Source: an uncultured Bacteroidales bacterium
GTDB lineage: Bacteria; Bacteroidota; Bacteroidia; Bacteroidales; VadinHA17
Length of the DNA stretch: 35,443 bases
NCBI GenBank assembly: GCA_937871625.1
Contig: CALMRD010000342.1
Location: forward strand, 1 to 35,443
Reading direction: 5' to 3'
Shown piece after piece: positions 10 through 26,420 of the stretch. The position numbers were made by a program, and so were the translations under genes. The stretch's first letter is position 1. Each line of letters starts with the position of its first letter. The notes below the pieces were generated by a model. The model made no database searches and was not told where the DNA came from. It saw nothing but the letters and a program-made list of their open reading frames with translations.

Positions 10-441
10 TCAGTAACAATAATTAAAGTCGGACTCAGCAGAGGCTCCTAACCCGGCAACAGCCTTTTTTGCTGCCTCAAGATGCAGGAACGGCACATGC
101 TCGTAAAATGCCTTTTCCCGTCGCAGGTCCCAGCTTTCCTGCAGCACCTGAAGGGCTTCATCATATTTCCCCATTTTGTATAATCCCCATCCTTTGGTAT
201 GCAAAAAGGAAAAATGTCCGGGACTTGCTTTAAGGGCCTCAGTGACCAGTTTCATGCCTTCATCCGTGTTTCTTTCGTTGTCGAGAAGGAAGTAAGCCAG
301 GTTGTCGATCCGTTCAGGATTACCGGGTTCCAGTGACAGGGCCTCCCGGTAATACTCCTCGGCCCTGTCAGGCATGGCTGATTCATTGAAGCCAAAAGCG
401 CGCAGTGTGGCAATGGTCGCTTCGGAAAGGGGTATGTTTCT
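10..441 (-). pseudogene. Displaced C-terminal TPR part of TIR protein A
   Basis: This stretch is in the same frame as TIR protein A and is separated from it only by the TAA at 442-444. There is no other stop from there to the TGA at 10-12. It encodes 143 residues. The segment after the stop (RNIPLSEATIATLRAFGF) runs straight into TPR-like helices such as AEEYYREALSLEPGNPERI and YKMGKYDEALQVLQESW. The first ATG, at 375, lies inside a TPR helix and makes a poor natural start. Adding this piece to A gives about 797 residues, close to D (819) and E (811), so it is best read as the cut-off end of A. A separately translated 121-residue TPR protein from 375, or stop readthrough, cannot be excluded. 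Confidence 0.75.
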
Positions 442-2403
442 TTAGAGAGAAGCAAGTTTGTCCCAATACCTGAGTGCTTTAATGGTGTCACCCATCAACC
501 CATACAGGATTCCCTGCCATCCGGCCAGTTCAATGTCATCAGGAAAATATTGTTCTGCCTTTTTGTAGACTTTTTCCGCCTTCTTATACTGACCGTTTTT
601 TTGATAAGCCTTCCCCAGGTAAATATAATTCAGAGCCCAGTCCGGGATGATATTCCATTTGTCATATATCTGCAACGCTTTCTCATATTCAATAATGGCC
701 TTTTCATATTGCTGCAATAAGAGGTAGCAGTTGCCAAGGTTAAAATAAGTGCCTGTCATCTGGTCATCAAGCTGGATAAGCTGCTTCAGGTACTTGATTT
801 GATCGTGTGGAGTTTCAAAACGACATGCATACACCCAGTTTGCATGTATTTTTTGTTGAACAGACATCCGGTCTGTTTTTTCACATGCTCTGAGGCACCA
901 TTTTTTTGCCTGCTCCAACAGGTAAAGCTTATCGTAGATTGTTGAAAACCAGAATTCAAGCTCGTACTGGTTACTGTAGGCCAGTGATGTCATGATGATG
1001 GGCAGATAGAAGTTTGAGTCAATATCTATCGCCTTTGAAAACCAGTTAATGGCTGAAAGGAAGTCCGATTTATAGAACTCGTTTCTTCCATGAACAAAAT
1101 ACCTGTATGCTTCAGGTGACCAGGTTGACAGGAGAGATGTATTAAGGAGAGGAGTGTTCATCTGCAGTTCAGACAGAATGAGAAAATCTTTCACCTGTGC
1201 TGACAATGAGTCGATCAGAAAAAAAATATTCTCCTCCCGGCAGGGGCCCTCTATCTGAAAAGACCTGTACACCTCCTCTGTTTCCGGGTCAATGATCTGA
1301 GCATAAAGACGGCTGACCGGCCCTGCCTTTTTTATGCTTCCCAGGATCAGGACATCTGCCTCAAGCTTCTGTGAGATAGAGCTGCCTACCGTGGGAGTGA
1401 TGGAGGCATAGTTAACAATCCCCTGACCTCTGACGAGGCTTTTTATCGATTCGGCCTGCCTGACCTTCAGCTCTTCCGTGTTGGAGAGTGAGGATATCAG
1501 GATATCCTGTATCCCTTCCTGCCACATATTCCATACTGTGTCACCGGTAAGGTTCTGAAACGGCATCACGGCCACGGCAATTCTTTCGCCTGACGACCTG
1601 AGACTCGCCAGCTTGTCGCGGTTGAATATTTTTGGCAAAGCAAAAATAGCTGCAATGGCCAGGAGAACAATTAATGCTGTTCCATAGTATATTTTTCTCT
1701 TCTCTGATAAGAGCATTATACCCTTGTCCGGTTTTATGGGTCCAGTGTGACCTTCCTTTGGCAATTCTCCTTTCTGAGAGCTTTCACCTGATAATGGGGC
1801 CGAAACACTCTTTAATCCTGCAACGATCTCTTTTATAGCAATGGCCACTTTGTTAATCTGGTTGCGGTACCTTGTATTGTTAATGTTACTCTTTTCGTCA
1901 TCTTCGGAGATTAAAGGTCTGTTTACTCCGGGTTCCTTATATATGAACTCAATACCGCGAAGGACTCCTCCCAGAACCGCCTCACAAAGCTTCTCATCGT
2001 CGGGGTCCAGGTCGTGGATTCTTACAGGCAGCACCCTGCTTGCCACATTGCCGTTGGGAAGCTTTACTTTCAAGCCGAACTGATCCTTTGATGCCTGTTC
2101 CACAAATGCTTTGAACTCATGTTCCCATGCATAGGAGTTCGGATCACAATAGGTGCGGGAGATGATCGGGATAAATATCAAGCATTTCAGTTTCTCCTTC
2201 AGGGATTCATCTACATCATGGGTCTCAAGCAGACCGTCATGCGGATTGATGTCGAAATAGACGCTGATCTCTTCCTTGAAGGTGGATTCAAGTTCAGTCC
2301 TGAGAGCCTCAACGAACTCACTCACCCATCTGTCGCCCTTATTGTCTTTCTGACGATAGCTGATGAATATGTCGTAATTATATCCTTCGATAATACCTGA
2401 CAT
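442..2403 (-). CDS. TIR-TM-TolB-like-TPR protein A (653 aa, probably truncated)
   Basis: This is paralogue A of the five-member family. A TIR domain occupies about residues 8-130: it opens with DIFISYRQKDN and carries W93-E-H-E96, the WxxE position of the catalytic glutamate in NAD-cleaving TIRs. A family-specific segment follows (EPGVNRPL, then YRNQINK, 157-190), then one membrane helix at about 240-256. A TolB/FlgO-like domain begins at VAVMPFQNLTGD (about 275-410), and TPRs follow from about 430. It should be a membrane-anchored sensor/effector, with NAD as the presumed substrate by family knowledge only. The ATG at 2403 lies about 24 bases after a strong promoter. The protein stops within a TPR array at a TAA, and the same frame continues to position 10. 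The TIR part is identical at DNA level to that of C. The TolB-like domain is more divergent than in B and C. Confidence 0.85.
   Translation of the reverse strand: MSGIIEGYNYDIFISYRQKDNKGDRWVSEFVEALRTELESTFKEEISVYFDINPHDGLLETHDVDESLKEKLKCLIFIPIISRTYCDPNSYAWEHEFKAFVEQASKDQFGLKVKLPNGNVASRVLPVRIHDLDPDDEKLCEAVLGGVLRGIEFIYKEPGVNRPLISEDDEKSNINNTRYRNQINKVAIAIKEIVAGLKSVSAPLSGESSQKGELPKEGHTGPIKPDKGIMLLSEKRKIYYGTALIVLLAIAAIFALPKIFNRDKLASLRSSGERIAVAVMPFQNLTGDTVWNMWQEGIQDILISSLSNTEELKVRQAESIKSLVRGQGIVNYASITPTVGSSISQKLEADVLILGSIKKAGPVSRLYAQIIDPETEEVYRSFQIEGPCREENIFFLIDSLSAQVKDFLILSELQMNTPLLNTSLLSTWSPEAYRYFVHGRNEFYKSDFLSAINWFSKAIDIDSNFYLPIIMTSLAYSNQYELEFWFSTIYDKLYLLEQAKKWCLRACEKTDRMSVQQKIHANWVYACRFETPHDQIKYLKQLIQLDDQMTGTYFNLGNCYLLLQQYEKAIIEYEKALQIYDKWNIIPDWALNYIYLGKAYQKNGQYKKAEKVYKKAEQYFPDDIELAGWQGILYGLMGDTIKALRYWDKLASL
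2022..2388. repeat. 367-bp perfect repeat, copy 1 (TIR coding region of A)
   Basis: Line-by-line comparison with 7963-8329 (constant offset 5941) shows no mismatch over 367 bases. Identity ends abruptly on both sides. The block encodes residues 6 to about 127 of A. Downstream coding sequence differs clearly at protein level (RIHDLDPDDEKLC in A, IIYDLSTADISLC in C). This is a direct repeat, suited to gene conversion or deletion. Confidence 0.95.
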
Positions 2404-2426
2404 CAGGGTGTTATTTTGTTCATTAT

Positions 2427-2459
2427 CAAAATTAAACCCTTAAAGGGCTAAATGCAAAA
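2427..2459 (-). promoter_or_regulatory. Promoter of TIR gene A (-33/-7 type)
   Basis: On the minus strand TTTTG (2459-2455) is followed by exactly 20 bases and then TAATTTTG (2434-2427), a full match to the Bacteroidota -7 box TAnnTTTG. Transcription would begin near 2420, giving a leader of about 20 bases before the ATG at 2403. Just after the box lies a mini-frame (MNKITP) whose TGA overlaps the ATG of A as TGATG. The layout is the same as at gene C. Confidence 0.7.
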
Positions 2460-2626
2460 TTTTCTTTTACCCCGTTGAACATGGTCAACCTGTCAGACCA
2501 TTAAGTCCTTAAAATCAGCCGAACTTGGATTTGAGGCCGTGCTTGATTTTGCAATTGCTTTAATACAATAAACTGTTGTATCGAAAGCAATTTATTTTTT
2601 ATTGGTTTCCTAATACGTGAAACGCC

Positions 2627-2670
2627 GCACGTGAAAAGCGAATATTGCTGCCACAATACCTAAAGGGTTA
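2627..2670. repeat. 44-bp element shared by the leaders of A and C, copy 1
   Basis: The 44 bases at 2627-2670 match 8523-8566 at 36 of 44 positions by hand count. In this copy the element overlaps the last codons of the HEXXH gene. In the other copy it is wholly intergenic. It lies about 200 bases upstream of gene A and suggests that the A and C cassettes were duplicated with their leaders. It also contains CACGTG. Confidence 0.6.
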
Positions 2671-4042
2671 AAAAATAGCCAGAATCATCTGTTCTCAGTT
2701 CGGCGTAATTCAGCTCAAGGACAATACCCTCATATTTCAGTGTTAGTTTCTTTTCCTCCAGGTTCACATCCGGAGTTTCCGGTATTCCGTTTAAAATCAA
2801 TTTTACCAGCCGGTACGAATCATCAAAACCGGTAATGCAGGGATGGTTGAATATCCTTATGTTTCCTTTCTGGTTTGCGGCTGAGAATATCACCCTGTGA
2901 AAGACAGTCCTTTCAGGAAGTATCTCTATTTCCAGTGGCTCGAATATCCTGATATTCAATGGATCTGATATTGAATTAATTTCAATTTTGTATCCAGACA
3001 GGTTTTTATAACTCTCTATTTCCTCTGCTTTTTTAATCTGCCATTCATCGAAATCCTTCTCCGAATCAAGTCTTAGCTGTCTGATATCACTTTCGCTAAA
3101 GTGTTGCTTTATAAGGGACGGGTCTATAAGGACAGATTGAAGGATGTCTTCAAGAGAAAGAGTATCATTACTTTCCAGATACGTTTTCCACTCCGGGTTC
3201 AACCTGTCAAGGATCATGGCTATCCATCTGCCCTCCCAGTAACCAAGGTCCCTGACCCCGGCCGGAGCAATTCCGTTGGTCATATTGGAGGCATTCAGCG
3301 GATCAACTCCACGGGCGATTCGTTCAATATAGTCTGACAATCCTTCGGTATGCTGCAGATCCTTTTCATAATTTCCGTATTGCACCGGAAGCCTGTTCAG
3401 CCTCTCCTTCCTGCAGTCAAGTGCAGCCAGAGCCCATCCTGCCAACTCCTCTTTGCGTTCGGACATGACAGCTCTTTTGAATGCCTCCTTTTCAGTTCTT
3501 CTGAGGAATAATGCCTCTTTTGTTTCCTCAGGATAGAAGAGGAGCACTCCGTCGTTCTGCCTCCAGCCGGGGTGTTTTGTTCTCTGGAAGACATGGAATT
3601 GTTCATGCACAATAATACCGGCCATGTCCCTGGGTGTATACCTCTCATTGGTTCTCCGCGAATAGTTGCACAGAACACTGGTCGCAGTCCAGGCTTCTCC
3701 GTAGCGGACAACTGAATTACCCCTTACAAGGGGGTACTGGCCATCATAAACATAGGCTCCGGCATAATCATCGGCCGGTTTGAAACCTTCAGGTGGCTGG
3801 TCTGCAAAGAAGAGCCAGGTATTGATACTGTCACAGATGGCGACGGGTATCTGTTCAGGATCAAAGCCGGGCCAGAGGTCATTTTCGGCAATCAGGGCAT
3901 GTTCTTTCATTACCGCCCTGATGTCAGTCACCGGCTTAACAGCAACGTGTTGTGCATCAGTAGCATAGGCAAAGCTGCAAAGTACAGTCAAAGCAATTGT
4001 GCCTATTCCAGCACGGTGAGATTTCATTGAGAAAGTGATCAT
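2660..4042 (-). CDS. Predicted secreted HEXXH metallopeptidase-like protein
   Basis: This 460-residue protein is not one I can assign to a named family. Residues 1-30 resemble a signal peptide: a basic start (MKSHR from residue 6) and a hydrophobic core (GIGTIALTVLCSFAYA), with likely cleavage before TDAQ. Residues 146-150 read HEQFH, an HEXXH zinc-binding motif in a helix preceded by AGIIV, as in gluzincin-type peptidases. The third ligand may be in the glutamate-rich stretch after it (for example TEGLSDYIE). The C-terminal 100 residues look beta-rich. It would act outside the cytoplasm as a protease or as a former one. It sits between TIR genes B and A on the same strand, 88 bases after B. 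The start could be ATG 4042 or the ATG five codons later, which fits a signal peptide better. There is no clear Shine-Dalgarno sequence before either. Confidence 0.7.
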   Translation of the reverse strand: MITFSMKSHRAGIGTIALTVLCSFAYATDAQHVAVKPVTDIRAVMKEHALIAENDLWPGFDPEQIPVAICDSINTWLFFADQPPEGFKPADDYAGAYVYDGQYPLVRGNSVVRYGEAWTATSVLCNYSRRTNERYTPRDMAGIIVHEQFHVFQRTKHPGWRQNDGVLLFYPEETKEALFLRRTEKEAFKRAVMSERKEELAGWALAALDCRKERLNRLPVQYGNYEKDLQHTEGLSDYIERIARGVDPLNASNMTNGIAPAGVRDLGYWEGRWIAMILDRLNPEWKTYLESNDTLSLEDILQSVLIDPSLIKQHFSESDIRQLRLDSEKDFDEWQIKKAEEIESYKNLSGYKIEINSISDPLNIRIFEPLEIEILPERTVFHRVIFSAANQKGNIRIFNHPCITGFDDSYRLVKLILNGIPETPDVNLEEKKLTLKYEGIVLELNYAELRTDDSGYFLTL

Positions 4043-4130
4043 TTTGATAATTCGGATTTAATTGGTCAACAGAGTCTGTGGCTGCATTAAAACTTCGGAG
4101 ATAGTTCTTCAAGTTCAGCAAATCCTGTTT

Positions 4131-6269
4131 CTATATTTTCACTTTCCCCATGATTTCGAGAAATGCAGGATCGGACCTCAGGTTCCGGTAAGATACTGTA
4201 TCCACATTCATCAATAACAGAAAAAACTCCTCCCTCTCTTCATATCCCCTCCTGAGATAATCCAGTGCTTCCCTGTTCAGGCCCACCTCTGCCATCAAAG
4301 TTCCTATCATACTCTGAGGTACAAATCCTGTCCTGTCCCTTTCTATCAATGTATCAAGCAACCTTCTGGTTTCATCCCGGGCACCTGATCTGCTGTATGC
4401 AACCCCGAGATGGGTGATCGCCAGTGGTGAGAAGCCTGAAAGTGTCTTCTCCAGCTCTTCAATCGACTTTGTGTACTCTCCCTCAAAAAGGTAAATTGCT
4501 CCCAGGTAATAGTGACAAACAGGGAGTTTTTCTGCCAGCTTCTCAAGGTGGGTTATGGCAGCTTCCCTTTGTCCTGCCTTATAAAGGTGGACAGCATATA
4601 AGCCATCTCTTGAAGAGTATGCCGGATCGAGGGCTAAGGCACGCTGGTCCCATTCAACTGCCTCTGCAAATTTTCCCTTGAAGAACGACATTTCAGCAAG
4701 GTACTTATAGACTTCGGGATTATTGGGTGCCAGTTCGAGAGCACGATTATAGTTACGCGCAGCACTCTCAATATCAAAGTAATATAACAAGTCTGCAACG
4801 CCAATACAGGCATAGGCATCAGGCAGCATGCTATCAAGTTCCAGGGCTTTATGCGCCAGTTTCACTGCCGGAGGGTAGGCCTCCGCCGGCCTCAGATTGG
4901 CATAAAACGCCAAAGTTCCGTAACAGGTTGCCAATCCGGTGTACGCCCTGGCAAATCCCGGGTCAGCTTCAATTGCTTTCTCAAACAGGGTCTTTGCTTT
5001 CCATAATGCTTCCGGAGTGCGCTGTCCGCGCAGATGCACTCCCAGGAGATAGTAATCGTAAGCTTCCAGGTTTTCAGAAGGAATTTTCTCAATCAGGTTT
5101 TTTTCTTCAGGTTTGATTACAGCTTTCAGCTCCTTTGCAACAGCCTGGGCCACCTCACTCTGAATGGCAAAAATATCAGAGATGTCTCTGTCATAAACTT
5201 CTGACCATAAATGTGCATCACTCCCGGCATCAATCAGCTGCACAGTTATCCGCACATTATTGCCCATCTTCCTGACACTGCCCTCCAGTATGGCTGACAC
5301 ATTCAACTCACGGGCTATTTCCTTTAATGACAGGGTTGTGTTTTTATAACTCATTGATGTTGTGCGGGAAATTACCTTCAGATCACCAATCTTAAAGAGG
5401 CGATCAATTATCTCATCAACCATGCCATCGGTGAAATATTCCTGCTCCGGGTCGTTGCTCAGATTGGCAAACGGAAGTACAGCGATAGATTTGTCAATTG
5501 CAGATGATATTCCCTTGGAGCTCCTGATCAGCGGGAGAAGGATCAGCAGAACGACAATCAGCGCAGATACCATTATGGCCGCAGTAACAGCTATTTTCCT
5601 CCACGGCATTTTCTTCTTTTCAGGTTTAATGCCATTGATTATTGTATCAACGGTTTGAGATTTTACACCCGGATTCTTAATCCCCTCCACAATCGCTTTA
5701 ACAGCATTGGCAACTTTATTGATCTGATTCCTGTACTTTGTCCTGTTCAGGTTTTTGTTTTCGTCATCATTCGGCGTAAGCGGCCTGTTGACTCCCGGCT
5801 CCTTATAGATGAATTCGACGCCCCGCAGCACTCCGCCTAAAACTGTTTCACATTCTTTTATATCTGAAGGGTCAAGATCATAAATGGTGACCGGCAGCAC
5901 CCTGCTTGCCACATTGCCGTCAGGCAACTTAATTTTCAATCCGAACTGATCGTGAGATGCCTGTTCCACAAACGCCTTGAACTCATGTTCCCAGGCGAAG
6001 GATTTCGGGTCGCAATAGGTACGGGAGATGATCGGGATAAATATCAGGCATTTGAGCTTTTCCTTTAAGGACTCATCCACATCGTGTGTTGCGAGCAGAC
6101 CGTCGCGAGGATTTATGTCAAAATAGACACTGATTTCTTCTTTAAAAGTAGCTTCGAGCTCCTTCTTCAGGTTTTCAACAAACTCCGTTACCCAGCCGTC
6201 ATACCTGTTGTCTTTCTGGCGATAGCTGATGAAGATGTCGTATTCATATCCGGGGATGAGGCTGGGCAT
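4131..6269 (-). CDS. TIR-TM-TolB-like-TPR protein B (712 aa)
   Basis: Paralogue B, apparently intact. The TIR domain is at 8-130 with W93-E-H-E96 retained, followed by the EPGVNRPL/YRNQINK segment. One membrane helix at about 226-248 (IAVTAAIMVSALIVVLLILL) is preceded by a basic KKKMPWRK. The TolB-like domain (about 259-395) is the textbook form of the COG5616 type: SIAVLPFANLSNDPEQEYF, later ILEGSVRK and LWSEVYDRD. TPRs run from about 410 to the end, closing with the usual LRSDPAFLEIMGKV. The TIR is predicted to face the cytoplasm, with the TPRs across the membrane if the helix is a simple anchor. The gene starts 35 bases after C. A TAACTTTA (6307-6300), like the -7 boxes of D and E, overlaps the stop of C, but the nearest TTG is 24 bases upstream instead of 20, so B may depend partly on transcription from C. 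Confidence 0.88.
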   Translation of the reverse strand: MPSLIPGYEYDIFISYRQKDNRYDGWVTEFVENLKKELEATFKEEISVYFDINPRDGLLATHDVDESLKEKLKCLIFIPIISRTYCDPKSFAWEHEFKAFVEQASHDQFGLKIKLPDGNVASRVLPVTIYDLDPSDIKECETVLGGVLRGVEFIYKEPGVNRPLTPNDDENKNLNRTKYRNQINKVANAVKAIVEGIKNPGVKSQTVDTIINGIKPEKKKMPWRKIAVTAAIMVSALIVVLLILLPLIRSSKGISSAIDKSIAVLPFANLSNDPEQEYFTDGMVDEIIDRLFKIGDLKVISRTTSMSYKNTTLSLKEIARELNVSAILEGSVRKMGNNVRITVQLIDAGSDAHLWSEVYDRDISDIFAIQSEVAQAVAKELKAVIKPEEKNLIEKIPSENLEAYDYYLLGVHLRGQRTPEALWKAKTLFEKAIEADPGFARAYTGLATCYGTLAFYANLRPAEAYPPAVKLAHKALELDSMLPDAYACIGVADLLYYFDIESAARNYNRALELAPNNPEVYKYLAEMSFFKGKFAEAVEWDQRALALDPAYSSRDGLYAVHLYKAGQREAAITHLEKLAEKLPVCHYYLGAIYLFEGEYTKSIEELEKTLSGFSPLAITHLGVAYSRSGARDETRRLLDTLIERDRTGFVPQSMIGTLMAEVGLNREALDYLRRGYEEREEFFLLLMNVDTVSYRNLRSDPAFLEIMGKVKI

Positions 6270-6304
6270 ATTTCAGAGTTCAGGTTCCATATTTAAGGTT
6301 AAAG

Positions 6305-8365
6305 TTAATACTCCAATCCCAGTTTTCTCAGCAAAGCTATAAAGCGTGGTTCCGCCCGGAGGGATTTAAATGCAGGTTCTACATTCAGGTAGATATAATC
6401 GGTATCAAATTCGTTTACACTGGCTTCGATATAGTCCAATGCTTTCCCCTTATTCCCTCTCAGGGCATATAGAATCGAAATTATTCTTTTGGATAAAGGC
6501 GAGCTGGAAAGTGCATGAAATTCAAGCTCCAGATTAATAATAAAGTCAAGAAAACCATCTATGCCTGATATGTCATAAACCTCCTTCGCTCTATTTTTAT
6601 AAGCAACCAACGACTGATTATCATCTAAAATCTTTTGATATTCATCAATTGCCTCTGTAATGAGACCTTTCATGAAATAGCTTAAGAATGTATAGAAGCC
6701 CACCACGCTTACCGGAAATTCAGGGTCTAACTCTACTGCCTTTTTGCATTGAAAAATAGCTTTATCATAGGATTCAGCAAAATAGTACATAAGCCCACAT
6801 GCTCCGTTCTTTATTGCGGATAAGGGATCAAGCTTTACAGCCTGATTCATATGTTCGGAAGCTGCGTCAAATTTCCCGAACACAGTAAGAAAGAGTCCAT
6901 ACCATTGATGGGCCGAAGCATAATTTGGATTTAATGACAGAGCAGTTTGATAATATCCTTCCGCCTTTTTATAATTGCGTTCAAAGATCTCAGTAATGTC
7001 TGCCAGGGTTGCATAAGCCTCAGCAATATTACTATCAATCGACAGACTTTTCTCTGCATATTCCCGCGCTTTTTTAAAGGATATCTCAGGCTGCATGTAA
7101 TTCCAGTCTGCACAGACCATATAAGCATCAGCCAGTCCGGCATAAGCCAGGGCATACTTATCATCTGATTCAAGGGCCTTCAGGAAGTATTCAATGCTGG
7201 CCAGCAAACCCTCCCTGGTTCTTTTATTCCAGTAGTAGCGGCCAAGCATGTAGAGATCATATGCCCTGATACTTGATGTCTGCTTCCTTTCTTCCGGGTA
7301 TAATTTTACTTTCAGGGCTTCAGTGATTGAACGTGAAACCTTTTCCTGTATCTCAAAAATATTCTCTAGGTTCTCATTATATTTTTCAGCCCAGATATGG
7401 TAATCATAGGCAGCATCTATCAGCTGGGCTGTTATACGGAGGTTATTTCCGGCCTTACGGACGCTGCCTTCAAGCACATACCTGACTTTGACTTTCTCTG
7501 CAATTTCTTTAACTGTGAATTTTGTGCCTTTGAAAGTCATCGCTGAACTCCTTGAGATTACGAGGAGCTCATGAATATGAGACAGGTCTGTAATAATTTC
7601 CTCGGTGAGTCCGTCACTAAAGTATTCCTGTTCCGTATCGGAACTCATATTCTCAAAAGGAAGTACTAAAATAGATTTCTCATTCGCAGTAGGATTGTCG
7701 CTGGTCCGGAGGTCTTTTCTCAGCAAATTCCTTTTCTGAGCCGGTTCATTTTTCAATCCGGCCAAAATTTCATTTATGGCATTGGCGACTTTATTTATCT
7801 GGTTTCTGTATTTTGTCTTGTTCTGGTTCCTCCTATCATCATCATCAGGTTTTAGTGGCCTGTTGACGCCAAGCTCCCCGTAAACAAAATCAACACCTCT
7901 CAGACCTCCATCCAGCACTGATTCACATAAACTGATATCTGCTGTGCTCAGATCATAAATTATTACAGGCAGCACCCTGCTTGCCACATTGCCGTTGGGA
8001 AGCTTTACTTTCAAGCCGAACTGATCCTTTGATGCCTGTTCCACAAATGCTTTGAACTCATGTTCCCATGCATAGGAGTTCGGATCACAATAGGTGCGGG
8101 AGATGATCGGGATAAATATCAAGCATTTCAGTTTCTCCTTCAGGGATTCATCTACATCATGGGTCTCAAGCAGACCGTCATGCGGATTGATGTCGAAATA
8201 GACGCTGATCTCTTCCTTGAAGGTGGATTCAAGTTCAGTCCTGAGAGCCTCAACGAACTCACTCACCCATCTGTCGCCCTTATTGTCTTTCTGACGATAG
8301 CTGATGAATATGTCGTAATTATATCCTTCAATTATGCTTGACAACGGAGCACGGATTTGGTTCAT
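6305..8365 (-). CDS. TIR-TolB-like-TPR protein C, no membrane helix (686 aa)
   Basis: Paralogue C. Its TIR domain is identical to that of A over the shared repeat, including WEHE. The post-TIR segment is present but divergent (ELGVNRPL, YRNQINK). Unlike A, B, D and E there is no hydrophobic helix: a short polar linker leads directly into the TolB-like domain (SILVLPFENMSSDTEQEYF, then YVLEGSVRK and IWAEKYNE). TPRs fill the second half, ending LRAEPRFIALLRKLGLEY. C should therefore be soluble. The start is uncertain. An upstream TTG at 8371 falls inside the -7 box and cannot be used. ATG 8365 begins four bases after that box and would be nearly leaderless. TTG 8344 aligns with the ATG of A and would leave a leader of about 20 bases. 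I chose ATG 8365 provisionally. Confidence 0.85.
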   Translation of the reverse strand: MNQIRAPLSSIIEGYNYDIFISYRQKDNKGDRWVSEFVEALRTELESTFKEEISVYFDINPHDGLLETHDVDESLKEKLKCLIFIPIISRTYCDPNSYAWEHEFKAFVEQASKDQFGLKVKLPNGNVASRVLPVIIYDLSTADISLCESVLDGGLRGVDFVYGELGVNRPLKPDDDDRRNQNKTKYRNQINKVANAINEILAGLKNEPAQKRNLLRKDLRTSDNPTANEKSILVLPFENMSSDTEQEYFSDGLTEEIITDLSHIHELLVISRSSAMTFKGTKFTVKEIAEKVKVRYVLEGSVRKAGNNLRITAQLIDAAYDYHIWAEKYNENLENIFEIQEKVSRSITEALKVKLYPEERKQTSSIRAYDLYMLGRYYWNKRTREGLLASIEYFLKALESDDKYALAYAGLADAYMVCADWNYMQPEISFKKAREYAEKSLSIDSNIAEAYATLADITEIFERNYKKAEGYYQTALSLNPNYASAHQWYGLFLTVFGKFDAASEHMNQAVKLDPLSAIKNGACGLMYYFAESYDKAIFQCKKAVELDPEFPVSVVGFYTFLSYFMKGLITEAIDEYQKILDDNQSLVAYKNRAKEVYDISGIDGFLDFIINLELEFHALSSSPLSKRIISILYALRGNKGKALDYIEASVNEFDTDYIYLNVEPAFKSLRAEPRFIALLRKLGLEY
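7963..8329. repeat. 367-bp perfect repeat, copy 2 (TIR coding region of C)
   Basis: This is the second copy of the block at 2022-2388, same orientation, 5941 bases apart, without a mismatch in my comparison. Identity begins and ends sharply inside the coding sequence of C, and both flanks have diverged. Confidence 0.95.
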
Positions 8366-8368
8366 TAT

Positions 8369-8401
8369 CAAATTTAAACCAATAGCAAGCTAAAAGCAAA
8401 A
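8369..8401 (-). promoter_or_regulatory. Promoter of TIR gene C (-33/-7 type)
   Basis: On the minus strand TTTTG (8401-8397), 20 bases, then TAAATTTG (8376-8369), a full TAnnTTTG. It aligns with the promoter of A, including GATAATGAAC directly after the box. The position shows that a start at 8371 is impossible and limits the leader to about 0-20 bases. Confidence 0.7.
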
Positions 8402-8522
8402 CTTTCTTCTAATGGTGGAAAAGGATGATCCCGCTCAGATTCGATTCGTTATTGTAAAGGCCGTTGTACTTTTCATCCATGAAAGAATAGTCAAAGGTGA
8501 TATTTCTGTTCTTCTTTTTGCA

Positions 8523-8604: not shown

Positions 8605-9750
8605 TTACAAAGTCAATAACCATTCTCTGAACACCGGATTGGCAAACCTGTATTCGTTTTCAGATTTATAAACCAACGCTTTTTTTTGCAAGGCTTTAAG
8701 TGCCTCAGTCAGTGAAGAACTTACAGGCAGGTCAAACATAGTTCGGACTTTGTCTGAAAAAATGCCGGAGCCTCCATTCTTTGCCAATGCCAGCAGGGTT
8801 GAACGTTGTGTTGTGGTCAACTGATCATATATGTCCTGGAAGATATCTATCTGTGAATACATCACCCTGTTCAACCAGCTATCCCTGAAATCTTCTTTGT
8901 CCTGGTCAATTCCGCTTCGTATTAAGTCAAAAACCACGGAAGCAAAAAATTGAGTATAATGTGGCTGACACTCCGATACTTCAAGGATACTTTCAACCGT
9001 ATGTTTTCTTATCTCCAGGCCATAATCATTGAACTTTTCTTTAATGAAACCCGATAGTTCTGTTTTATTGATCACGGACAATTTCATCCTGGTTGCAAAC
9101 TCGAAAAAAGGTGACTGTGCAGAAGCAAAAATATCTTCCATCATAGATTGTTTGCTCCCAAGAAATATGTACGAAACGTCACGATGTCTCTGGAACGAGG
9201 AACGCATCCAGTTCAACAGGAACGGGTCAATTCTTGAAATCTCCTGGAACTCATCAAAGGCAATGCATATCCGCTTTTTCCTTTGTTGGGAGATACTATT
9301 GGGAACGTCGAGTATTGTTTCAATATCTCGCTGCTGTTCTATCTTGTTTATATTAAGGGAAAATCCGGGATTTCCGAATTGATCAAATGATACCCCCGGA
9401 GAAAGATGCCTGAAACTATCCGACAATTTATTTGTCAGACTTTTTATTTCATCTCTCCAGTTAAATAGTTCCCTGGCAAGTATATCTGAGTATTTCCTGC
9501 TAAAATCATCCAGGGATTTAATGTTGTAGAGATCAACATAAATGCAGATAGCTGATGTCGTTTCACGGAATACCTTATCAACAAGTGATGTTTTGCCAAA
9601 TCGCCTTGGCGAAAACAGCCACGTAGAGTATCCGTTTTCAATTTGTTGCTTCAGAAACGATATCTCCTTTATTCTGTTGCAGAATGCTGTGTCATCGATA
9701 ACAACACCGAACTGGAAAGGATTGCCGTCTAATTCATTCTTTGATTTCAT
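8605..9750 (-). CDS. AAA ATPase of the archaeal-ATPase/STAND-related type
   Basis: A 381-residue predicted cytoplasmic P-loop ATPase. The Walker A is SPRRFGKTS (residues 47-55), with serine in place of the usual first glycine, as part of the PRRxGKTSL pattern typical of this family. The Walker B is ICIAFDEFQE (161-170). Residues around 190-200 (FIFLGSKQSMM in sense, YIFLGSKQ) resemble sensor 1. The last 90 residues look like a winged helix (QRSTLLALAKNG, then SSLTEALKALQKKALV). Such proteins are common in Bacteroidota and archaea and are poorly characterised. Some act as regulators or as parts of conflict systems. It opens the minus-strand cluster of TIR genes C, B and A, 233 bases before C. 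An inverted repeat just upstream of the start suggests its own control. Confidence 0.8.
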   Translation of the reverse strand: MKSKNELDGNPFQFGVVIDDTAFCNRIKEISFLKQQIENGYSTWLFSPRRFGKTSLVDKVFRETTSAICIYVDLYNIKSLDDFSRKYSDILARELFNWRDEIKSLTNKLSDSFRHLSPGVSFDQFGNPGFSLNINKIEQQRDIETILDVPNSISQQRKKRICIAFDEFQEISRIDPFLLNWMRSSFQRHRDVSYIFLGSKQSMMEDIFASAQSPFFEFATRMKLSVINKTELSGFIKEKFNDYGLEIRKHTVESILEVSECQPHYTQFFASVVFDLIRSGIDQDKEDFRDSWLNRVMYSQIDIFQDIYDQLTTTQRSTLLALAKNGGSGIFSDKVRTMFDLPVSSSLTEALKALQKKALVYKSENEYRFANPVFREWLLTL

Positions 9751-19021: not shown

Positions 19022-21481
19022 TTATAATGAATTGCTCAATTTTTTGGTCATTATCTTAAACTCGGGTGTTTCTGTCATGCTTTTCCATGTGGGATCAACT
19101 TTCATGAGATTCATTGAGAACCACGAAGGATTGGTCAGCAGATATTCCACCTGTCGGATCGCATTGGGATAATCAGCGGTCATGGCATAGATCTTGGCCA
19201 GGTTGATGATCAAGTCATTTTTTACCAGGTTGTCATCACTGGCAAGCTGCACTGCGGTTTTGCCGGCTATGACTGCATCGGTTGCATTTCCCAGGCCTGC
19301 ATAGGTCAGGCCGCAGCAGCTGTATGAATACCAGTCGTCAGGATTTGACATTATCATCATCTTATAGACACGGAGGGCAGAGTCATAGTAAGACCTTGTC
19401 ATCTGTTCATTGTTGAGGAGGCTGTATGCCGTTGCTGTTGTGAGGTATCTCAGCCCGGGATACTCATAGTCACCATCTGTTGACGACAGTACTTCATTCA
19501 GGGCATTATTATAACTACCCTCGTAGATATTCAGAAGGATCTTATAATATTTCTGTCTCTCACCTGTTCTTCTAATGACAGTATCGAGCACTTCTCTGGC
19601 CTTCACAGTATTTCCGTCCTTCAGAATGAATGCTTCCATCATGTTGGTATATGGTCCGGACCAGTCAGGCATTACCTCCGTCGCCTTCCGAAAGAAGGCT
19701 ATGGCTGTGTCATAGCTGTGCATATAGGCAAAGGAGCTGCCTATGTTGATAAGTACCAAGGCGTCCTGTGGTTCTTCTTCGATAACCTCTCTTACCAGCT
19801 CCTGTGATCTGTTCCAGTCACCCATTTTACGGTATACCATAGCCATGTAGAACAGGGGATGGTAATTTGCCGGGTCCATCTCCCCGGCCATTCTGAACTG
19901 GGAGAGGGCTTCATGATAGTCTTCGATGCAGTAATAGTTATAGAATCCGAGTGCCACCCGGGCATCCGGCAGGTCGTTCTCCAGCTCCAAAGCTCTTTCA
20001 GCATCAGCCTTGCATTTGTCGACATGTGACGGATCCAGCTGTCCGGTATAGTAACCCCATGATCTTGCAATGGCACGCCTGGCATAAGCCAGGGCAAATT
20101 CAGGGTCCTCGTCTATTGCCCTGTCATACATTTCGATTGCGGCGGCAAAGCTGATAGAGTCAACAAACTTATTTCCTGCCAGCAGATAGTATAAGGCATT
20201 ATCAGACAGAACATTGGCTTTCAGGTAGTCTTTGTATGCGCCCGCGCTTCCGGTAGGATTCTTCTCAATTCGTGCCTTTTCTTCAGGTGTGAGTACTGTC
20301 TCAAGTATTGCAGCAGTTTTAATGGCAATGTCTGTCTGCATCCCGTGAAGTGCATCCCATGTCCCTTCAAAGACATCACTCCACAGTTGTTCATCCATCC
20401 TCACACTGATGAGTTTGACAGTGATCCTTACAATCTCATTGAAGATCTGATAGCTGCCCTCAATAATGTAGTTGGTTCTGAGTTCCTGCCCAATATCCGG
20501 TATTGATTTGGTGGCTGCCCGATATTTCATAACAGAGGTTCTTGGCCTGACAACAAGGTCATTGATTTTGCACAGCTGCGAGATGACCTCTTCAGTCAGC
20601 GCATCTCCCAGCCACAGATTATTTTCATCAGCACCTATACTTTCGAAGGGCAGGACGGCAATGGATTTTTCTTCCAGTTTACCTGCTGCTGACATATTGC
20701 CGATGAATTTGGACAGGGCGAACAACAAGGCAGCTGATGCCACAATTATCATGAAGGTGATAAGAGCACGGCGCGAGGCAACCGATCTTATAGTGGTCGG
20801 TTTCTCCTGAAGCCTGGCTACTGTTTCAGGTTCTTCCCATGGCTCTCTCCGTCCATGTTTTTCTTTATGTGGCGGAGGATTCTCTGACTGCAGGGCGGAG
20901 ACTATCTCCCTGATGGCATTGGCCGTTTTGTTTATCTGGTTGCGGTATCTTGTGCCGTACTGGTTTTTGTGTTCATCATCAACCGGGGTCAGGGGCCTGT
21001 TGACCCCGGGTTCCCTGTAGATGAAATCAATAGCCCGGAGTACCCCTCCGATCTCGTTTTCTATCAATTCCCTGTCTTCACTGTCGAGCTCATGTATCCT
21101 GACAGGCAGTATCCTGCTTGCCACGTTACCGCTGTGGAGGGTAACCTTCAGTCCGAGCCTGTCGGCCGAGGCCTGCCTTATATAAGCCCTGAACTCATGT
21201 TCCCAGGCGAATGATCTGGGGTCACAGTAAGTACGCGAGATGACCGGAATGAAGATCAGACATTTGAGTTTTTGCTTCAGGGATTCATCGACATCATGGG
21301 TGTCAAGCAGTCCGTCATGCGGATTGAGGTCGAAGTAGACGCTTATCTCTTCTTTGAAGGTTGCTTCAAGTTCAGCCCTGAGATGATCAACGAATTCAGT
21401 AACCCAGCCGTCATACCTGTTGTCATTCTGACGGTAGCTGATGAAGATGTCATACTCATATCCCGCTATGAGAGAAGCCAT
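19022..21481 (-). CDS. TIR-TM-TolB-like-TPR protein D (819 aa)
   Basis: Paralogue D, the longest member and intact. TIR domain at 8-130 (DIFISYRQNDN, with W93-E-H-E96), then EPGVNRPL/YRNQINK, then a long charged linker and one membrane helix at about 240-258 (ITFMIIVASAALLFAL). The TolB-like domain starts at SIAVLPFESIG (about 273) and continues through YIIEGSYQIF and LWSDVFEG to about 400. At least eight TPR-like units follow (for example AAIEMYDRAIDEDPEFALAY, TAIAFFRKATEVMPDWSG). Tyrosine is unusually frequent in the TPR part. The gene has its own promoter 20 bases before the ATG and lies 147 bases after E. The 71-codon gene follows by 34 bases, so D and the radical SAM pair may be cotranscribed. 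Confidence 0.88.
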   Translation of the reverse strand: MASLIAGYEYDIFISYRQNDNRYDGWVTEFVDHLRAELEATFKEEISVYFDLNPHDGLLDTHDVDESLKQKLKCLIFIPVISRTYCDPRSFAWEHEFRAYIRQASADRLGLKVTLHSGNVASRILPVRIHELDSEDRELIENEIGGVLRAIDFIYREPGVNRPLTPVDDEHKNQYGTRYRNQINKTANAIREIVSALQSENPPPHKEKHGRREPWEEPETVARLQEKPTTIRSVASRRALITFMIIVASAALLFALSKFIGNMSAAGKLEEKSIAVLPFESIGADENNLWLGDALTEEVISQLCKINDLVVRPRTSVMKYRAATKSIPDIGQELRTNYIIEGSYQIFNEIVRITVKLISVRMDEQLWSDVFEGTWDALHGMQTDIAIKTAAILETVLTPEEKARIEKNPTGSAGAYKDYLKANVLSDNALYYLLAGNKFVDSISFAAAIEMYDRAIDEDPEFALAYARRAIARSWGYYTGQLDPSHVDKCKADAERALELENDLPDARVALGFYNYYCIEDYHEALSQFRMAGEMDPANYHPLFYMAMVYRKMGDWNRSQELVREVIEEEPQDALVLINIGSSFAYMHSYDTAIAFFRKATEVMPDWSGPYTNMMEAFILKDGNTVKAREVLDTVIRRTGERQKYYKILLNIYEGSYNNALNEVLSSTDGDYEYPGLRYLTTATAYSLLNNEQMTRSYYDSALRVYKMMIMSNPDDWYSYSCCGLTYAGLGNATDAVIAGKTAVQLASDDNLVKNDLIINLAKIYAMTADYPNAIRQVEYLLTNPSWFSMNLMKVDPTWKSMTETPEFKIMTKKLSNSL

Positions 21482-21499
21482 GTTATTGGTTCAATTCTA

Positions 21500-21530
21500 T
21501 AAAGTTAAGAAAGAGTGAGAGGCAAGTCAA
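21500..21530 (-). promoter_or_regulatory. Promoter of TIR gene D
   Basis: On the minus strand TTG (21530-21528), 20 bases, then TAACTTTA (21507-21500), one base off TAnnTTTG and identical to the box of E. TTGCCTCT is also shared with E in the spacer. The leader would be about 12-15 bases. Confidence 0.6.
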
Positions 21531-21580
21531 GAATATTTCAATCGAAGCCGGTTGATCAATAAGAAAACTATGCCGCAAGC

Positions 21581-21628: not shown

Positions 21629-24064
21629 TCAATGCCTATTGAAGTATTCATCAAGCAGAGCCTGGAAGCGGATGTCAAACTGCAGTGCTGACAGGTCAGG
21701 ACTGGCTTTCAGCATGTAGAGATCCCTGTACCCGTTTTTAAGGGCTAGTTCAATATTTTCAAGGGCTCCGGGGATATTACCCTGTATGCAGAAAACCCTT
21801 GCAAAGGAATAGTATTGTGAAGAATCCAGGTCTTTAGCTTTCTGAAGCATCTGCCGGGAGATGTCCATCTCGCCCATACGTGCCGTAACAGCAGCCAATG
21901 AAGTGTAGGTACCATAATAGTCAGGAAATGCCTTAGTCCATTTTCTCTCTGCTATTTCTCTGAACTTCTGAAAATTACTCTGGGCTTCCGGCTGATTACC
22001 CATTGCCTCATTATTTACCCCAAGATCATAGTATGCAGGTGCCTCTCCGGGATACCTGGTGATGATTTCTCCGAGCACGGCCATCGCTTCTGAATAATTA
22101 TCCAGTCGCAGGTAAGCATAAGCGAGCCTGTATTGATTCATTACAATATCAGGATTGAGCCCGAAAGCTTTCTGGAAATACCCAATAGCCGTAGCAATAC
22201 TATCGCGGCAAAACCATGCAGATCCCATGTAAATGTACCCCCAGGGATTTTCAGGATTATCGGAAATCATTTTTTCTGCCCAGACAATCAAAGAATCGAT
22301 TTTTCCCAGGTACTCTTCATATATCCATAAAATTGCCGCATATGACAGTGCCTGATCAGGATTAATACTGACCGCCTTCTTGTATTCTTTCAATGCAAGT
22401 TCGTAATGGCCGGACTGCTGATGATACCAGCCAAGGTTATTATGGACGGTCGGATCATCCGGATACAATCTCTTCAGAATATCCATATTGGCAATGGCCT
22501 TATCATTATCATTTTCCACATGCTCAGCATAAAACGCCGTGATGCTGTACTTTTCCCTGTCAGTAAGGTTTTCAGCATTTTCCAGCGCCTCACTGAGAAG
22601 TTCCTTACCTTTCGGATCATTGAACTTCTCGAGCAGTATGTTCCCCAGTGATGCTTTTGCCGCAGTAAAACCCGTATCAATATTGAGTGCATTCTCATAA
22701 TATTTCCTGGCGTTTTTAAAATCGGCAAATAGGTGACTCTCTATCGCCAGGGAATATTGTTGCAGGGCTTTCAGGGAAGAGGTGGTAACCTTCGCCAGAG
22801 GCTTATCCTGTAAGGATATTTGATACCTTGATTCACCAAGGTCCCGGCGGATCTTCCTGCTCAGCTTGTCAATTGCGGGCAGTATCTCATCCTGTGTCCT
22901 GGCATACAGCACCTCAGACTTCAAAAGGTCTCCGGTCTCTGTGTCAATGATCCTTGCCGTGATGGCATATTGGTTTCCGGCCTCGCTTATGCCGGGCACT
23001 ATCAACAGGCCTATCCCTTCCCTGACAGAAATTTCCCTTCCCGTTATCTCATCAACAGATATTTGATCTTTCATCTCCATTCTTGCCAGGGTCTCAATCA
23101 TTCTTGATCTCGTGAAGACATTGAGATAACGTGACTGCCCTGCACTGAGTGAGAATGCAGTATAAAGCGATTTGTCGAAAACCGGATTATCAGTAAGGTT
23201 TTCAAAATCAGTGATCAGAATCCAGTCGCGTTTGGAGAATGGCAATGTGCTTCCGCCGGTGAAGAGATAGATGGCAATAAGTGCCAGTACTATTAATGAG
23301 GAACCGGATGTAAGAGCCAGCTTCTTATTCCCATGAGAGGGGGGGGTGTCTTTGCGCAGGCTATCTGTTGAGGCATCTGGCGGTGTAGCCGGATCGGGAT
23401 CGCCTTTTCCGGAAATGTCGGGTGTGGCGATTTCAGTTTCCTGATCTTCTGTACCGGACACCGATGCACTTATCAGGCCGGAAATCACTTCATCAATTGC
23501 GTTTGCTGCCTTGTTGATCTGGTTGCGATAGCTTATTTTGTGCAAATTCTTTTCCTCTGAGTCCCTGGGTGTAAGAGGACGATTTACGCCAGGTTCGGAA
23601 TAGATAAACTCAATGGGCCTGAGAAACCCTCCCAGAACATTTTCAACAAGAGACCTGTCCTCGGCTTTCAGTTCATGAATCTGAACAGGCAGCACTCTCA
23701 TGGCAACATTGCCTCCCGGAAGTTTCACCCTGAGTCCGAACCGGTCATTGTTGGCCTGCTCCATAAATGCCCTGAACTCATGCTCCCAGGCGAATGAATT
23801 CGGATCACAGTAGGTGCGGGAGATGACAGGAATGAAGATCAGGCATTTGAGTTTTTCCTTAAGGGTAGCATCAACATCATGTGTCTCAAGTAATCCATCA
23901 TGAGGACTGATGTCGAAATAGACGCTGATCTCCTCTTTGAATGTAGCCTCCAGCTCGCTCTTCAGATGTTCGACAAACTCCGTCACCCAGCCGTCATACT
24001 TATTGTCTTTCTGGCGGTAGCTGATGAAGATGTCGTAGTTGTATCCGGGGATCAGGCTGGCCAT
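21629..24064 (-). CDS. TIR-TM-TolB-like-TPR protein E (811 aa)
   Basis: Paralogue E, intact. TIR at 8-130 with W93-E-H-E96, then EPGVNRPL and YRNQINK, then a long Pro/Asp/Thr-rich linker (about 200-247) and one membrane helix at about 250-268 (SSLIVLALIAIYLF). The TolB-like domain (about 280-400) is the most divergent of the family: it begins WILITDFENLTDNPVFDKSL and lacks the AVLPF form, resembling instead the FENLTxxxxxD-type start seen in serine/threonine-kinase-linked TPR proteins. TPRs run from about 420 to 790 (ALKEYKKAVSINPDQALSY, EAMAVLGEIITRYPGEAPAY), ending LQFDIRFQALLDEYF. It has its own promoter inside the 119-base gap after the RyR-SpoIIE gene. The divergent sensor part beside a nearly invariant TIR suggests a different input for the same output. 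Confidence 0.88.
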   Translation of the reverse strand: MASLIPGYNYDIFISYRQKDNKYDGWVTEFVEHLKSELEATFKEEISVYFDISPHDGLLETHDVDATLKEKLKCLIFIPVISRTYCDPNSFAWEHEFRAFMEQANNDRFGLRVKLPGGNVAMRVLPVQIHELKAEDRSLVENVLGGFLRPIEFIYSEPGVNRPLTPRDSEEKNLHKISYRNQINKAANAIDEVISGLISASVSGTEDQETEIATPDISGKGDPDPATPPDASTDSLRKDTPPSHGNKKLALTSGSSLIVLALIAIYLFTGGSTLPFSKRDWILITDFENLTDNPVFDKSLYTAFSLSAGQSRYLNVFTRSRMIETLARMEMKDQISVDEITGREISVREGIGLLIVPGISEAGNQYAITARIIDTETGDLLKSEVLYARTQDEILPAIDKLSRKIRRDLGESRYQISLQDKPLAKVTTSSLKALQQYSLAIESHLFADFKNARKYYENALNIDTGFTAAKASLGNILLEKFNDPKGKELLSEALENAENLTDREKYSITAFYAEHVENDNDKAIANMDILKRLYPDDPTVHNNLGWYHQQSGHYELALKEYKKAVSINPDQALSYAAILWIYEEYLGKIDSLIVWAEKMISDNPENPWGYIYMGSAWFCRDSIATAIGYFQKAFGLNPDIVMNQYRLAYAYLRLDNYSEAMAVLGEIITRYPGEAPAYYDLGVNNEAMGNQPEAQSNFQKFREIAERKWTKAFPDYYGTYTSLAAVTARMGEMDISRQMLQKAKDLDSSQYYSFARVFCIQGNIPGALENIELALKNGYRDLYMLKASPDLSALQFDIRFQALLDEYFNRH

Positions 24065-24082
24065 GCTGTCAATTCATTTTGA

Positions 24083-24113
24083 TAAAGTTACGAAACAGAC
24101 AGAGGCAAATCAA
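24083..24113 (-). promoter_or_regulatory. Promoter of TIR gene E
   Basis: On the minus strand TTG (24113-24111), 20 bases, then TAACTTTA (24090-24083). The box, the spacing and TTGCCTCT in the spacer match the promoter of D, with a short leader before the ATG at 24064. Confidence 0.6.
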
Positions 24114-24183
24114 ATAAATTATAGTCTGAGGGTTATCTCCGGTTTTCGACGGATTGAGGAGAGTCGCCGTCCTTTGCATACTC

Positions 24184-26013
24184 TCAGATCCTGATTCCTA
24201 TGATGGTAATGTCGTCAGTCTGGTCTTCATCTTTCTCCTCACGCCATCGGTCAAATTCTTCATAAAGAATGTCACCCTGCTCAGGCATGGGATATTTATT
24301 GATCTTCAACAGCAGATCACGGAGTCTTTTCCAGCTATACCGCCGGTGACTGCCGCCCCCGAACTGGTCGGCAAACCCGTCAGAACATATATAGAGTGCG
24401 TCATGCGTGTTCAGGCAAAGAGTTTTTGTTGAAAAGCTGTAAGTGCCATTTTTGAAGTGATCTTCCGAAACAGTGCCTGAAAGATTGCCGGAGATCTTTC
24501 CGTCGGAAACATGAAAAATGGCATTACCTGCACCCGAATATGTCAGTTTCCCGGTGTTGGTATCAAGATTACACAGGATGATTGTCATGTCGTCTGACAC
24601 GGCAAGTTCTGCGGTATCCTTCCGCAGGAATCTGCGGATGCCTGAATAGAGATGGCTGAGGGCTTCAGCAGGGTCGGTTATCCTAAGGATATTTACTGTC
24701 TGATCAAGTATTCCATATCCAATTGTGCTTATAAGTGCAGCCGGGATGCCATGTCCGGTACAGTCGGCGAGGCCAAAAATCACATGACCATCATGTCTGC
24801 TGAAGAAGTAGAAATCGCCACTAACAATATCCTTGGGTTCAAAGAGCAGGAAGCTTTCAGGGAAGCACTCCCTGATTGACAGATTGTCAGGAAGGAACGC
24901 TTCCTGTATGTGCCTTGCGTAGTTGTAGCTGCCCTCCACCTCACTCAGAGAAAGCCTGATCTTCTCGTCAATTGAGGTGAGTTTTTCACTGATCAGCGGG
25001 GAGTTTTCAGCCAGCAGGTTAATACCGGCACTAAGTTCATTTGTGCCTGAAAGAAGCTTATAGATGCTGCTCTGGGGTTTGATGGCATACGACAGCTTGC
25101 TGATCCGGTCAGGTGAGACAGGGTAGGCTTCATATCTGATATCCCGGAGTATGGCAGGTGTCAGTCGCACCAGCTCACGGTCCTTTTCTTTCTCGTCTTC
25201 ACTGAGCTCTGCATAAGGCACCAGGCTGGGGTGTATCTTCTTTCGTTCGTCCCTTTTTATCCCGGTCTTCCATCCGTTAAGCCTTTTCTCCCAGCTCCAC
25301 CTCAGATGCTCGACCCTTGCCATTGTCTCAATCTCCTGATCATTAAGATGGAGAGCCCGTGGTTTGTAGCCCTTCCTGACCGGTCTTATCCTGTAACCTA
25401 TGGCCAGTAATCTCGTTGGTATATGAAAGGCATTGTCAATGTTTGACCGGAGGATCTCATCCGGCAGATCATCAAACTCAGTCATGCCTGGGAGGATGGT
25501 GCCGGATGTGCCGGCCCCCTGTTTCTTTATCTCGCGAAGGTAACTTGCATGAACAGCCCTGGCGATTTTCATTAAAAGGGATTTGTTCACACCTGCAATC
25601 TCTTCCTGCCTGATGATCTCGTATCCGGCTTTTTTAAGACTGGCAGGGATCAGATAGTTCAGTTCGCGGAAAAATTGCCTTCTGTCAGCGGTATGAGACC
25701 CACCGGGCAGGCTGTCAAGATCCATCTCAACAAGAGTGGTTATCTCCTCCTCAGTGATTATGCATGTCCGGCAGAAGTCCCGGTACAGCCTGAGATGCAA
25801 TCCCAAAGCCTGGAGTTTTTGAGGTATCCCTGCCGCATAGTTAATCCAGAACTGCCTATCTGCTTTCCATGGATCTGCAAGTTTCCTGTGCTGAGCGGCG
25901 GCGGCCTGTATTATGTTAGTCCTTCTGCAATCATTAAGAAGACTCTGCGCAACACTTTTGGCCTGAAACTTTATAAAATCTGCCTGATCGGTAAATCCGT
26001 CTTCAGGTTTCAT
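24184..26013 (-). CDS. RyR domain-SpoIIE PP2C-type phosphatase fusion
   Basis: A 609-residue predicted cytoplasmic signalling protein. Residues about 175-290 match the RyR domain first defined in ryanodine receptors and known in bacterial ligand-sensing and conflict proteins: ARVEHLRWSWEKRLNGWKTG, then HPSLVPYAELSEDEKEKDR. Residues about 365-609 are a SpoIIE/PP2C phosphatase with the metal ligands in place: SGDFYFF (D400), ADCTGHG (D417), CSDGFAD (D545) and DDITIIG (D600/D601). A helical connector (LISEKLTSIDEKIRLSLSEVEG) joins them. Its likely substrate is the phosphorylated SiaC protein encoded by the preceding gene, which it overlaps by four bases. RyR in place of the usual HAMP or PAS input suggests control by a nucleotide-like ligand, which is inference. 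No kinase of the SiaB type is visible in the window. Confidence 0.88.
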   Translation of the reverse strand: MKPEDGFTDQADFIKFQAKSVAQSLLNDCRRTNIIQAAAAQHRKLADPWKADRQFWINYAAGIPQKLQALGLHLRLYRDFCRTCIITEEEITTLVEMDLDSLPGGSHTADRRQFFRELNYLIPASLKKAGYEIIRQEEIAGVNKSLLMKIARAVHASYLREIKKQGAGTSGTILPGMTEFDDLPDEILRSNIDNAFHIPTRLLAIGYRIRPVRKGYKPRALHLNDQEIETMARVEHLRWSWEKRLNGWKTGIKRDERKKIHPSLVPYAELSEDEKEKDRELVRLTPAILRDIRYEAYPVSPDRISKLSYAIKPQSSIYKLLSGTNELSAGINLLAENSPLISEKLTSIDEKIRLSLSEVEGSYNYARHIQEAFLPDNLSIRECFPESFLLFEPKDIVSGDFYFFSRHDGHVIFGLADCTGHGIPAALISTIGYGILDQTVNILRITDPAEALSHLYSGIRRFLRKDTAELAVSDDMTIILCNLDTNTGKLTYSGAGNAIFHVSDGKISGNLSGTVSEDHFKNGTYSFSTKTLCLNTHDALYICSDGFADQFGGGSHRRYSWKRLRDLLLKINKYPMPEQGDILYEEFDRWREEKDEDQTDDITIIGIRI

Positions 26014-26420
26014 TGCATCTCTGATTCAATGAATTCGAAAGGCAGGTCAACAATCTGTGCCATTTCCCTGCCGGCTTCAAGCATGTCATCATCATCCTTT
26101 ACGTAATACCATCTGGCGGAAGCCTTAATATTTTGGGCATGCAACCTTGCCAGTATCTTGCAGATATCAAGTATGCACTTTGCTGATCCGGAATTGAAAT
26201 AATTGAAATTAAAATTGATCATAACTGGCTTGCTGTTGTCATCCGACCTCAGCAGAGACTCACTGAAATCGTTCAGCCAATCAAGTATCGGGTAGTAAAA
26301 CTCCCTTACATCCTGTGGCCTGGACTCACCCTCAATCTCCAGAAAATGCTCCTCGTGGTCAAGGATGACCCTGGGTGTAAAGACTGTGGGGCTTATGATC
26401 AGCTTTTCCATGGGGGTCAT
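26010..26420 (-). CDS. siaC: SiaC-family regulatory phosphoprotein (DUF1987)
   Basis: A 136-residue STAS-like protein. The family hallmarks are FTPRVILDHEEHFLEIEGESRPQDVREFYYPILDWLND near the start (read in two parts: ILDHEEHFLEIEGESRP and REFYYPILDWL) and FNYFNSGSAKCILDI, whose Ser/Thr-rich turn corresponds to the phosphoacceptor region. In Pseudomonas aeruginosa SiaC is phosphorylated by SiaB, dephosphorylated by the PP2C phosphatase SiaA and activates a diguanylate cyclase. Here only the phosphatase partner is adjacent, with an ATGA overlap, so the output must be elsewhere or different. Starts at 26420 or 26411 (MEKL) are both possible; neither has a clear Shine-Dalgarno sequence. The gene is divergent from the TerB-ABC gene across 191 bases. 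Confidence 0.88.
   Translation of the reverse strand: MTPMEKLIISPTVFTPRVILDHEEHFLEIEGESRPQDVREFYYPILDWLNDFSESLLRSDDNSKPVMINFNFNYFNSGSAKCILDICKILARLHAQNIKASARWYYVKDDDDMLEAGREMAQIVDLPFEFIESEMQ

Follow-up and report, generated by a model that had tools for sequence, protein, structure and literature searches.

The window analysed here, a stretch of 35,443 nucleotides, is contig C342 of a 93%-complete MAG of an uncultured Bacteroidales bacterium, which was assembled in 411 contigs and is the one assembly of its species; its close relatives are also Bacteroidales MAGs. Five genes of the window, A to E (Table 1), belong to a Bacteroidales family whose proteins combine a TIR-fold head, usually one transmembrane (TM) segment, a CsgG/FlgO-like domain and TPRs. 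Another contig of the genome (C11; L129 in G000) breaks off within a sixth head of the family (1–199). For gene A, residues 1–783 of a protein from a relative (DIKJ L057) match positions 2403–55 in one frame in a single tblastn match; the homology of A thus runs on in frame for ~115–130 codons past its single in-frame TAA, to about position 55, so that A is either truncated or affected by a base error. An AAA ATPase gene (Pfam ATPase_2, 8605–9750) adjoins the TIR cluster, and a gene with RyR and SpoIIE-phosphatase domains lies beside a SiaC-family gene at 24184–26420. The gene order radical SAM – D – E – RyR is conserved genus-wide; in the RyR loci of three genomes (G016, G017 and G018), D directly adjoins the RyR gene with no E between them. 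In G021, a genome of the same genus, a 45-kb span of one contig carries about nine genes of the family or remnants of them (C43, 5–62 kb; L114, L115 and L116).

Table 1. Positions of the family genes and associated features in the window
Feature	Position	Strand	Description
Continuation of the gene A tail past the in-frame stop (TPR)	10..441	-	Single tblastn match
Gene A	442..2403	-	TIR head, TM (~234-259), CsgG/FlgO-like alpha/beta domain, TPR; ends at in-frame TAA (442-444)
Block copy 1	2022..2388	-	Codons 6-127 of gene A, TIR head; exact match, sharp edges
28-bp repeat, inner block edge	2027..2054	-	Same sequence in B (5893) and C (7968) as in A
Promoter-like leader of A, TAnnTTTGATAnTGAA class	2404..2470	-	Homologous to, and diverged from, the C leader (8345-8410)
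Gene B	4131..6269	-	TIR head, TM, tail; ortholog of G021 C43:24430-26578
Gene C	6305..8365	-	TIR head joined to TPR tail without the usual TM; start ATG 8365 or TTG 8344, in frame
Block copy 2	7963..8329	-	Codons 6-127 of gene C, TIR head; exact match
Gene D	19022..21481	-	Conserved member of the family with genus-level synteny; without strong sign of a swap
Gene E	21629..24064	-	Family member; like G021 E' in its coding sequence and like G021 F' in the DNA upstream
Approximate exchange zone, E-type/F-type	24000..24115	-	From about -50 to +60 relative to the E start; three-way site comparison

The family was sampled as 144 members from 37 genomes. A hydrophobic TM-like segment follows the head in 129 of 136 members and is missing in C; since nearly all relatives possess it, the TIR-TPR protein of gene C is probably soluble. 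The heads score below the cut-off of the Pfam TIR_2 profile (PF13676; E 0.0003–0.01, 17–22 bits against a cut-off of 28), which is matched at E<=0.1 by 70 of the 74 heads, and a PDB profile search with the heads returned weak plant TIR matches only (E 0.33). When the head was modelled alone, the pLDDT was 81.8 and the top PDB matches of the model were the TIR domains of SARM1, RPP1, RUN1, L7 and MyD88, with AbTir further down; a flavodoxin-like TIR fold is predicted for the head on this basis. In the full-length model of A, the tail is good and the TIR head is poor. A YDIFISYR motif lies at the first strand of the head, and the head protein is highly conserved (mean column identity 79%). All 74 heads have E96, a candidate for the catalytic glutamate of TIR NADases; its alignment with the glutamate of SARM1 was judged by eye. 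Judging from this anatomy, the family members would be membrane receptors with a cytosolic TIR effector. The PADLOC models gave no match better than E 0.008, and a literature search retrieved no description of the family or of conversion among bacterial TIR genes, which does not prove that none exists.

Two classes of promoter-like leaders were identified, each absent from shuffled sequence: TAnnTTTGATAnTGAA in 23 of 141 members and TTTG-N16-24-TAACTTTAT in 27 of 141. Both resemble Bacteroidetes -33/-7 promoters. Besides the leader of A, examples in the window are located at 8345–8410, 21482–21560 and 24065–24140.

Two segments of identical sequence lie in A and C. The sequence-only reading of this DNA had described them as matching at every base with sharp edges, and this was confirmed: all 367 bases are equal, extension by one base fails on either side, and the next-longest exact repeat in the window measures 28 bp. 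A stretch of that length common to A, B and C, located at the inner edge of the block, is possibly an old exchange point. The same reading spoke of a TIR block, which is correct in that the exact identity falls in the head, but the block takes in only about two thirds of the ~187 codons that make up the head module. Within the block, none of ~74 synonymous sites differs between A and C, whereas the other head codons (1–5 and 128–187) are saturated at pS 0.78. Likewise, codons for the same amino acid are identical in 120 of 120 cases inside the block versus 39% outside it, and the chance odds of such identity are 0.39^120 ~ 1e-49. This excludes both chance and protein-level selection, the latter having already been judged insufficient in the sequence-only reading. 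On the promoter side, the adjacent stretch and the start region can be aligned between A and C, yet are diverged, and codons 128–187 show about 60–78% nucleotide identity. Since both flanks are homologous but diverged, a homologous head pre-existed in both genes.

Identity at silent sites over a bounded tract, within two paralogs that are otherwise diverged, is the classical mark of gene conversion. The block in A and C is best explained by a recent event of this kind, or by an equivalent ectopic recombination, and in our judgement this explanation is very probably correct. It had been proposed from the sequence-only reading, together with a synonymous-divergence plot and a comparison in related strains; the plot gave silent-site identity in the block and saturation outside, the relatives provided further tracts and recombinants (in G021 and PMIJ), and both support the proposal strongly. 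Under this scenario, A and C would be old paralogs, and about 367 bp of the TIR head would have passed from one to the other in a recent, non-reciprocal recombination, the copied tract replacing the diverged homologous head of the recipient gene. Conversion tracts in yeast and rodents average 200–500 bp, which is the usual experimental size (PMC3924818). As for the donor, the promoter of A resembles that at G021 C43:35195, and B', the G021 ortholog of B, is the sequence closest to the block; neither affinity crosses the block edges, so that either A or C may have been the donor. A test of the A/C clade over codons 128–187 gave an AU p of 0.49. No close ortholog of A or C was found among the relatives examined, and the tail of C reaches 41% at best.

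Other members of the family bear traces of comparable exchanges. The tails of B and B' are 82% identical, and at silent sites the two genes differ by pS 0.6–1.1 in codons 1–105 (0.64 inside the block stretch) versus about 0.2 in codons 105–300. A B/B' clade was rejected for codons 1–75 (AU p 0.030; 0.057 with a quick tree), this group having been picked after the silent-site plot was inspected, whereas codons 128–187 support B+B' at 100/99. In the tree, a paralog from the G021 genome lies closer to the 5' head of B' than the ortholog B does, and pS between A and B' is 0.44. On these sequence comparisons, the 5' head appears to have been replaced either in B or in B'. In a second MAG, PMIJ, and hence in a different assembly, two paralogs (L053:43 and L053:5201) share a tract of 100 codons that falls just short of identity, with 0.96 identical codons in codons 75–174 versus 0.55 outside. 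Gene E, compared with the G021 genes E' and F', has a mosaic start: from -400 to about -50 the informative sites support F' over E' by 163 to 14, and from +80 on they support E' over F' by 275 to 37, placing the switch between about -50 and +80. Relative to E' and F', E thus reads as a promoter/head recombinant. Among the syntenic loci examined, F' is present in G021 only, and in G005, G011, G013, G020 and JAKLIJ, E directly adjoins the RyR gene. The confinement of F' to G021 among these loci, combined with the recombinant character of E, indicates that gene gain was accompanied by exchange at the heads.

The alternative that survives best is an assembly artefact, in which two near-identical heads were collapsed or the tail of C was joined to the head of A via a shared k-mer, for instance the 28-mer. 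The source MAG is fragmented, the 28-bp stretch that A, B and C have in common sits at the inner edge of the block and contig C11 ends within a family head, all of which would suit such an error. A chimaera, however, needs two false switches, because A and C differ in their upstream regions, each of which is of the family type, and a direct repeat of the form X-R-Y-R-Z should, by our reasoning, yield one linear path in the assembly graph. A collapse of heads above ~95% identity would still need a recent conversion given the background of ~80% nucleotide identity; it would turn "identical" into "nearly identical" and leave the conversion inference unchanged. Moreover, the graded, non-identical tracts found elsewhere (PMIJ, A/B') are unlike collapse products, and the occurrence of tracts of differing age in other assemblies speaks for a real process. 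We therefore consider an artefact unlikely. The end of C11 was also examined as an unresolved copy of the block and rejected, as it shares no exact match longer than 29 bp with the window, and that match is to gene E.

In a second alternative, a head fragment was newly duplicated or inserted beside a new tail, giving birth to a gene by fusion, and no existing head was converted. The missing TM segment of C, the lack of a close ortholog of its tail and the gene insertion with exchange at the heads seen in G021 are compatible with such a history. The block flanks in A and C (the promoter side and codons 128–187) nevertheless consist of family sequence at normal paralog divergence, indicating that the head was already in place, and we regard a fusion as very improbable. 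Finally, strong selection on the DNA, RNA or protein sequence that would hold the block identical is scarcely credible despite the conservation of the head protein, because in the same stretch the comparisons of A or C with the remaining heads of the window are nearly saturated (pS 0.61–0.75 for A against B, D and E; 0.66 between the heads of A and B), and because the B/B' orthologs differ there too (pS 0.64). Selection at the nucleotide level was refuted by the silent-site saturation between other heads.

The family was scanned for further tracts. At 2dlnL>=25, tracts were detected in 24 of 443 within-genome pairs versus 5 of 443 random between-genome pairs, the latter unmatched for relatedness (Fisher p 0.0004), and A/C ranked at the top of the within-genome pairs. 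The within-genome tracts were enriched among neighbours (13/24 vs 72/419, p 8e-5). By location, nine of them fall in the head, ten in the tail and five span both; some of the tail tracts may represent recent duplications with swapped heads and not conversions. Many homologous tails at pS 0.24–0.4 bear heads at pS 0.7–0.87, and such non-orthologous heads on orthologous tails are best read, from sequence, as swapped heads. In the D and E lineages, head and tail agree in most comparisons across the genus. The sequence-only reading had further suggested that the TIR module is homogenised while the sensor modules diverge. As a rule this is not supported: tail tracts are as common as head tracts and heads are swapped on orthologous tails, which points to mosaic shuffling and not to one-way TIR homogenisation. 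Head-only homogenisation was rejected on the same grounds, and pervasive recent homogenisation of heads was rejected because the run test gave p<=0.001 in only 4 of 467 within-genome pairs.

The A/C block would accordingly be the most recent visible instance of a process that recurs: clustered paralogs recombine ectopically, by homology, at their conserved stretches, and tracts of heads or tails are copied between them. The same recombination would sometimes gain or lose whole genes, and signalling heads and sensor tails would be re-paired. The enzymology would be of the RecA type, and the benefit may lie in keeping heads compatible, or the shuffling may be neutral. As a broader and more tentative proposal, to which we give somewhat less than even weight, Bacteroidales keep many related TIR-TPR proteins that resemble membrane receptors, and recombination within each genome, acting in gene clusters, continually joins their signalling heads to other sensor tails. 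The family would then be a bacterial counterpart of evolving TLR/NLR clusters, and the A/C block a freshly made event. A sharply bounded, very recent event alongside graded older ones makes head/tail shuffling of bacterial immune-like receptors testable, the cases for comparison being animal TLR and plant NLR clusters. It also carries a warning that whole-gene trees and short-read assemblies of such families can mislead.

Among known systems, TIR-domain NADases and signalling TIRs (SARM1, plant RUN1/L7 and AbTir) resemble the family in the predicted fold of the head, the YDIFISYR motif and possibly the invariant E96. They differ in that sequence matches to the family heads are weak and that these heads, known here from sequence and models, are fused to TM, CsgG/FlgO-like and TPR parts. 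The conversion of domain 3 between RF1 and RF2 in Bacteroidia and Chloroflexi is similar in being a partial-gene event between bacterial paralogs that affects a domain of shared function, with one case in the same class (PMC4530459). It concerns two translation-factor genes and ancient events (PMC4530459), whereas A and C belong to a large paralog family and their exchange is very recent. The conversion mechanism as such is already known, and its closest precedent is TLR1/TLR6, where gene conversion between mammalian paralogs was detected from identical codon use (PMC2077338). In both cases, neighbouring TIR-receptor paralogs share a sharply bounded tract over most of the TIR domain while their sensors differ. 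The mammalian tract is ~900 bp long, recurs with nearly identical boundaries in nine species and includes the TM segment and LRRs (PMC2077338); in the bacterial family of A and C, by contrast, the boundaries are not the same in every case and exchange extends to the tails.
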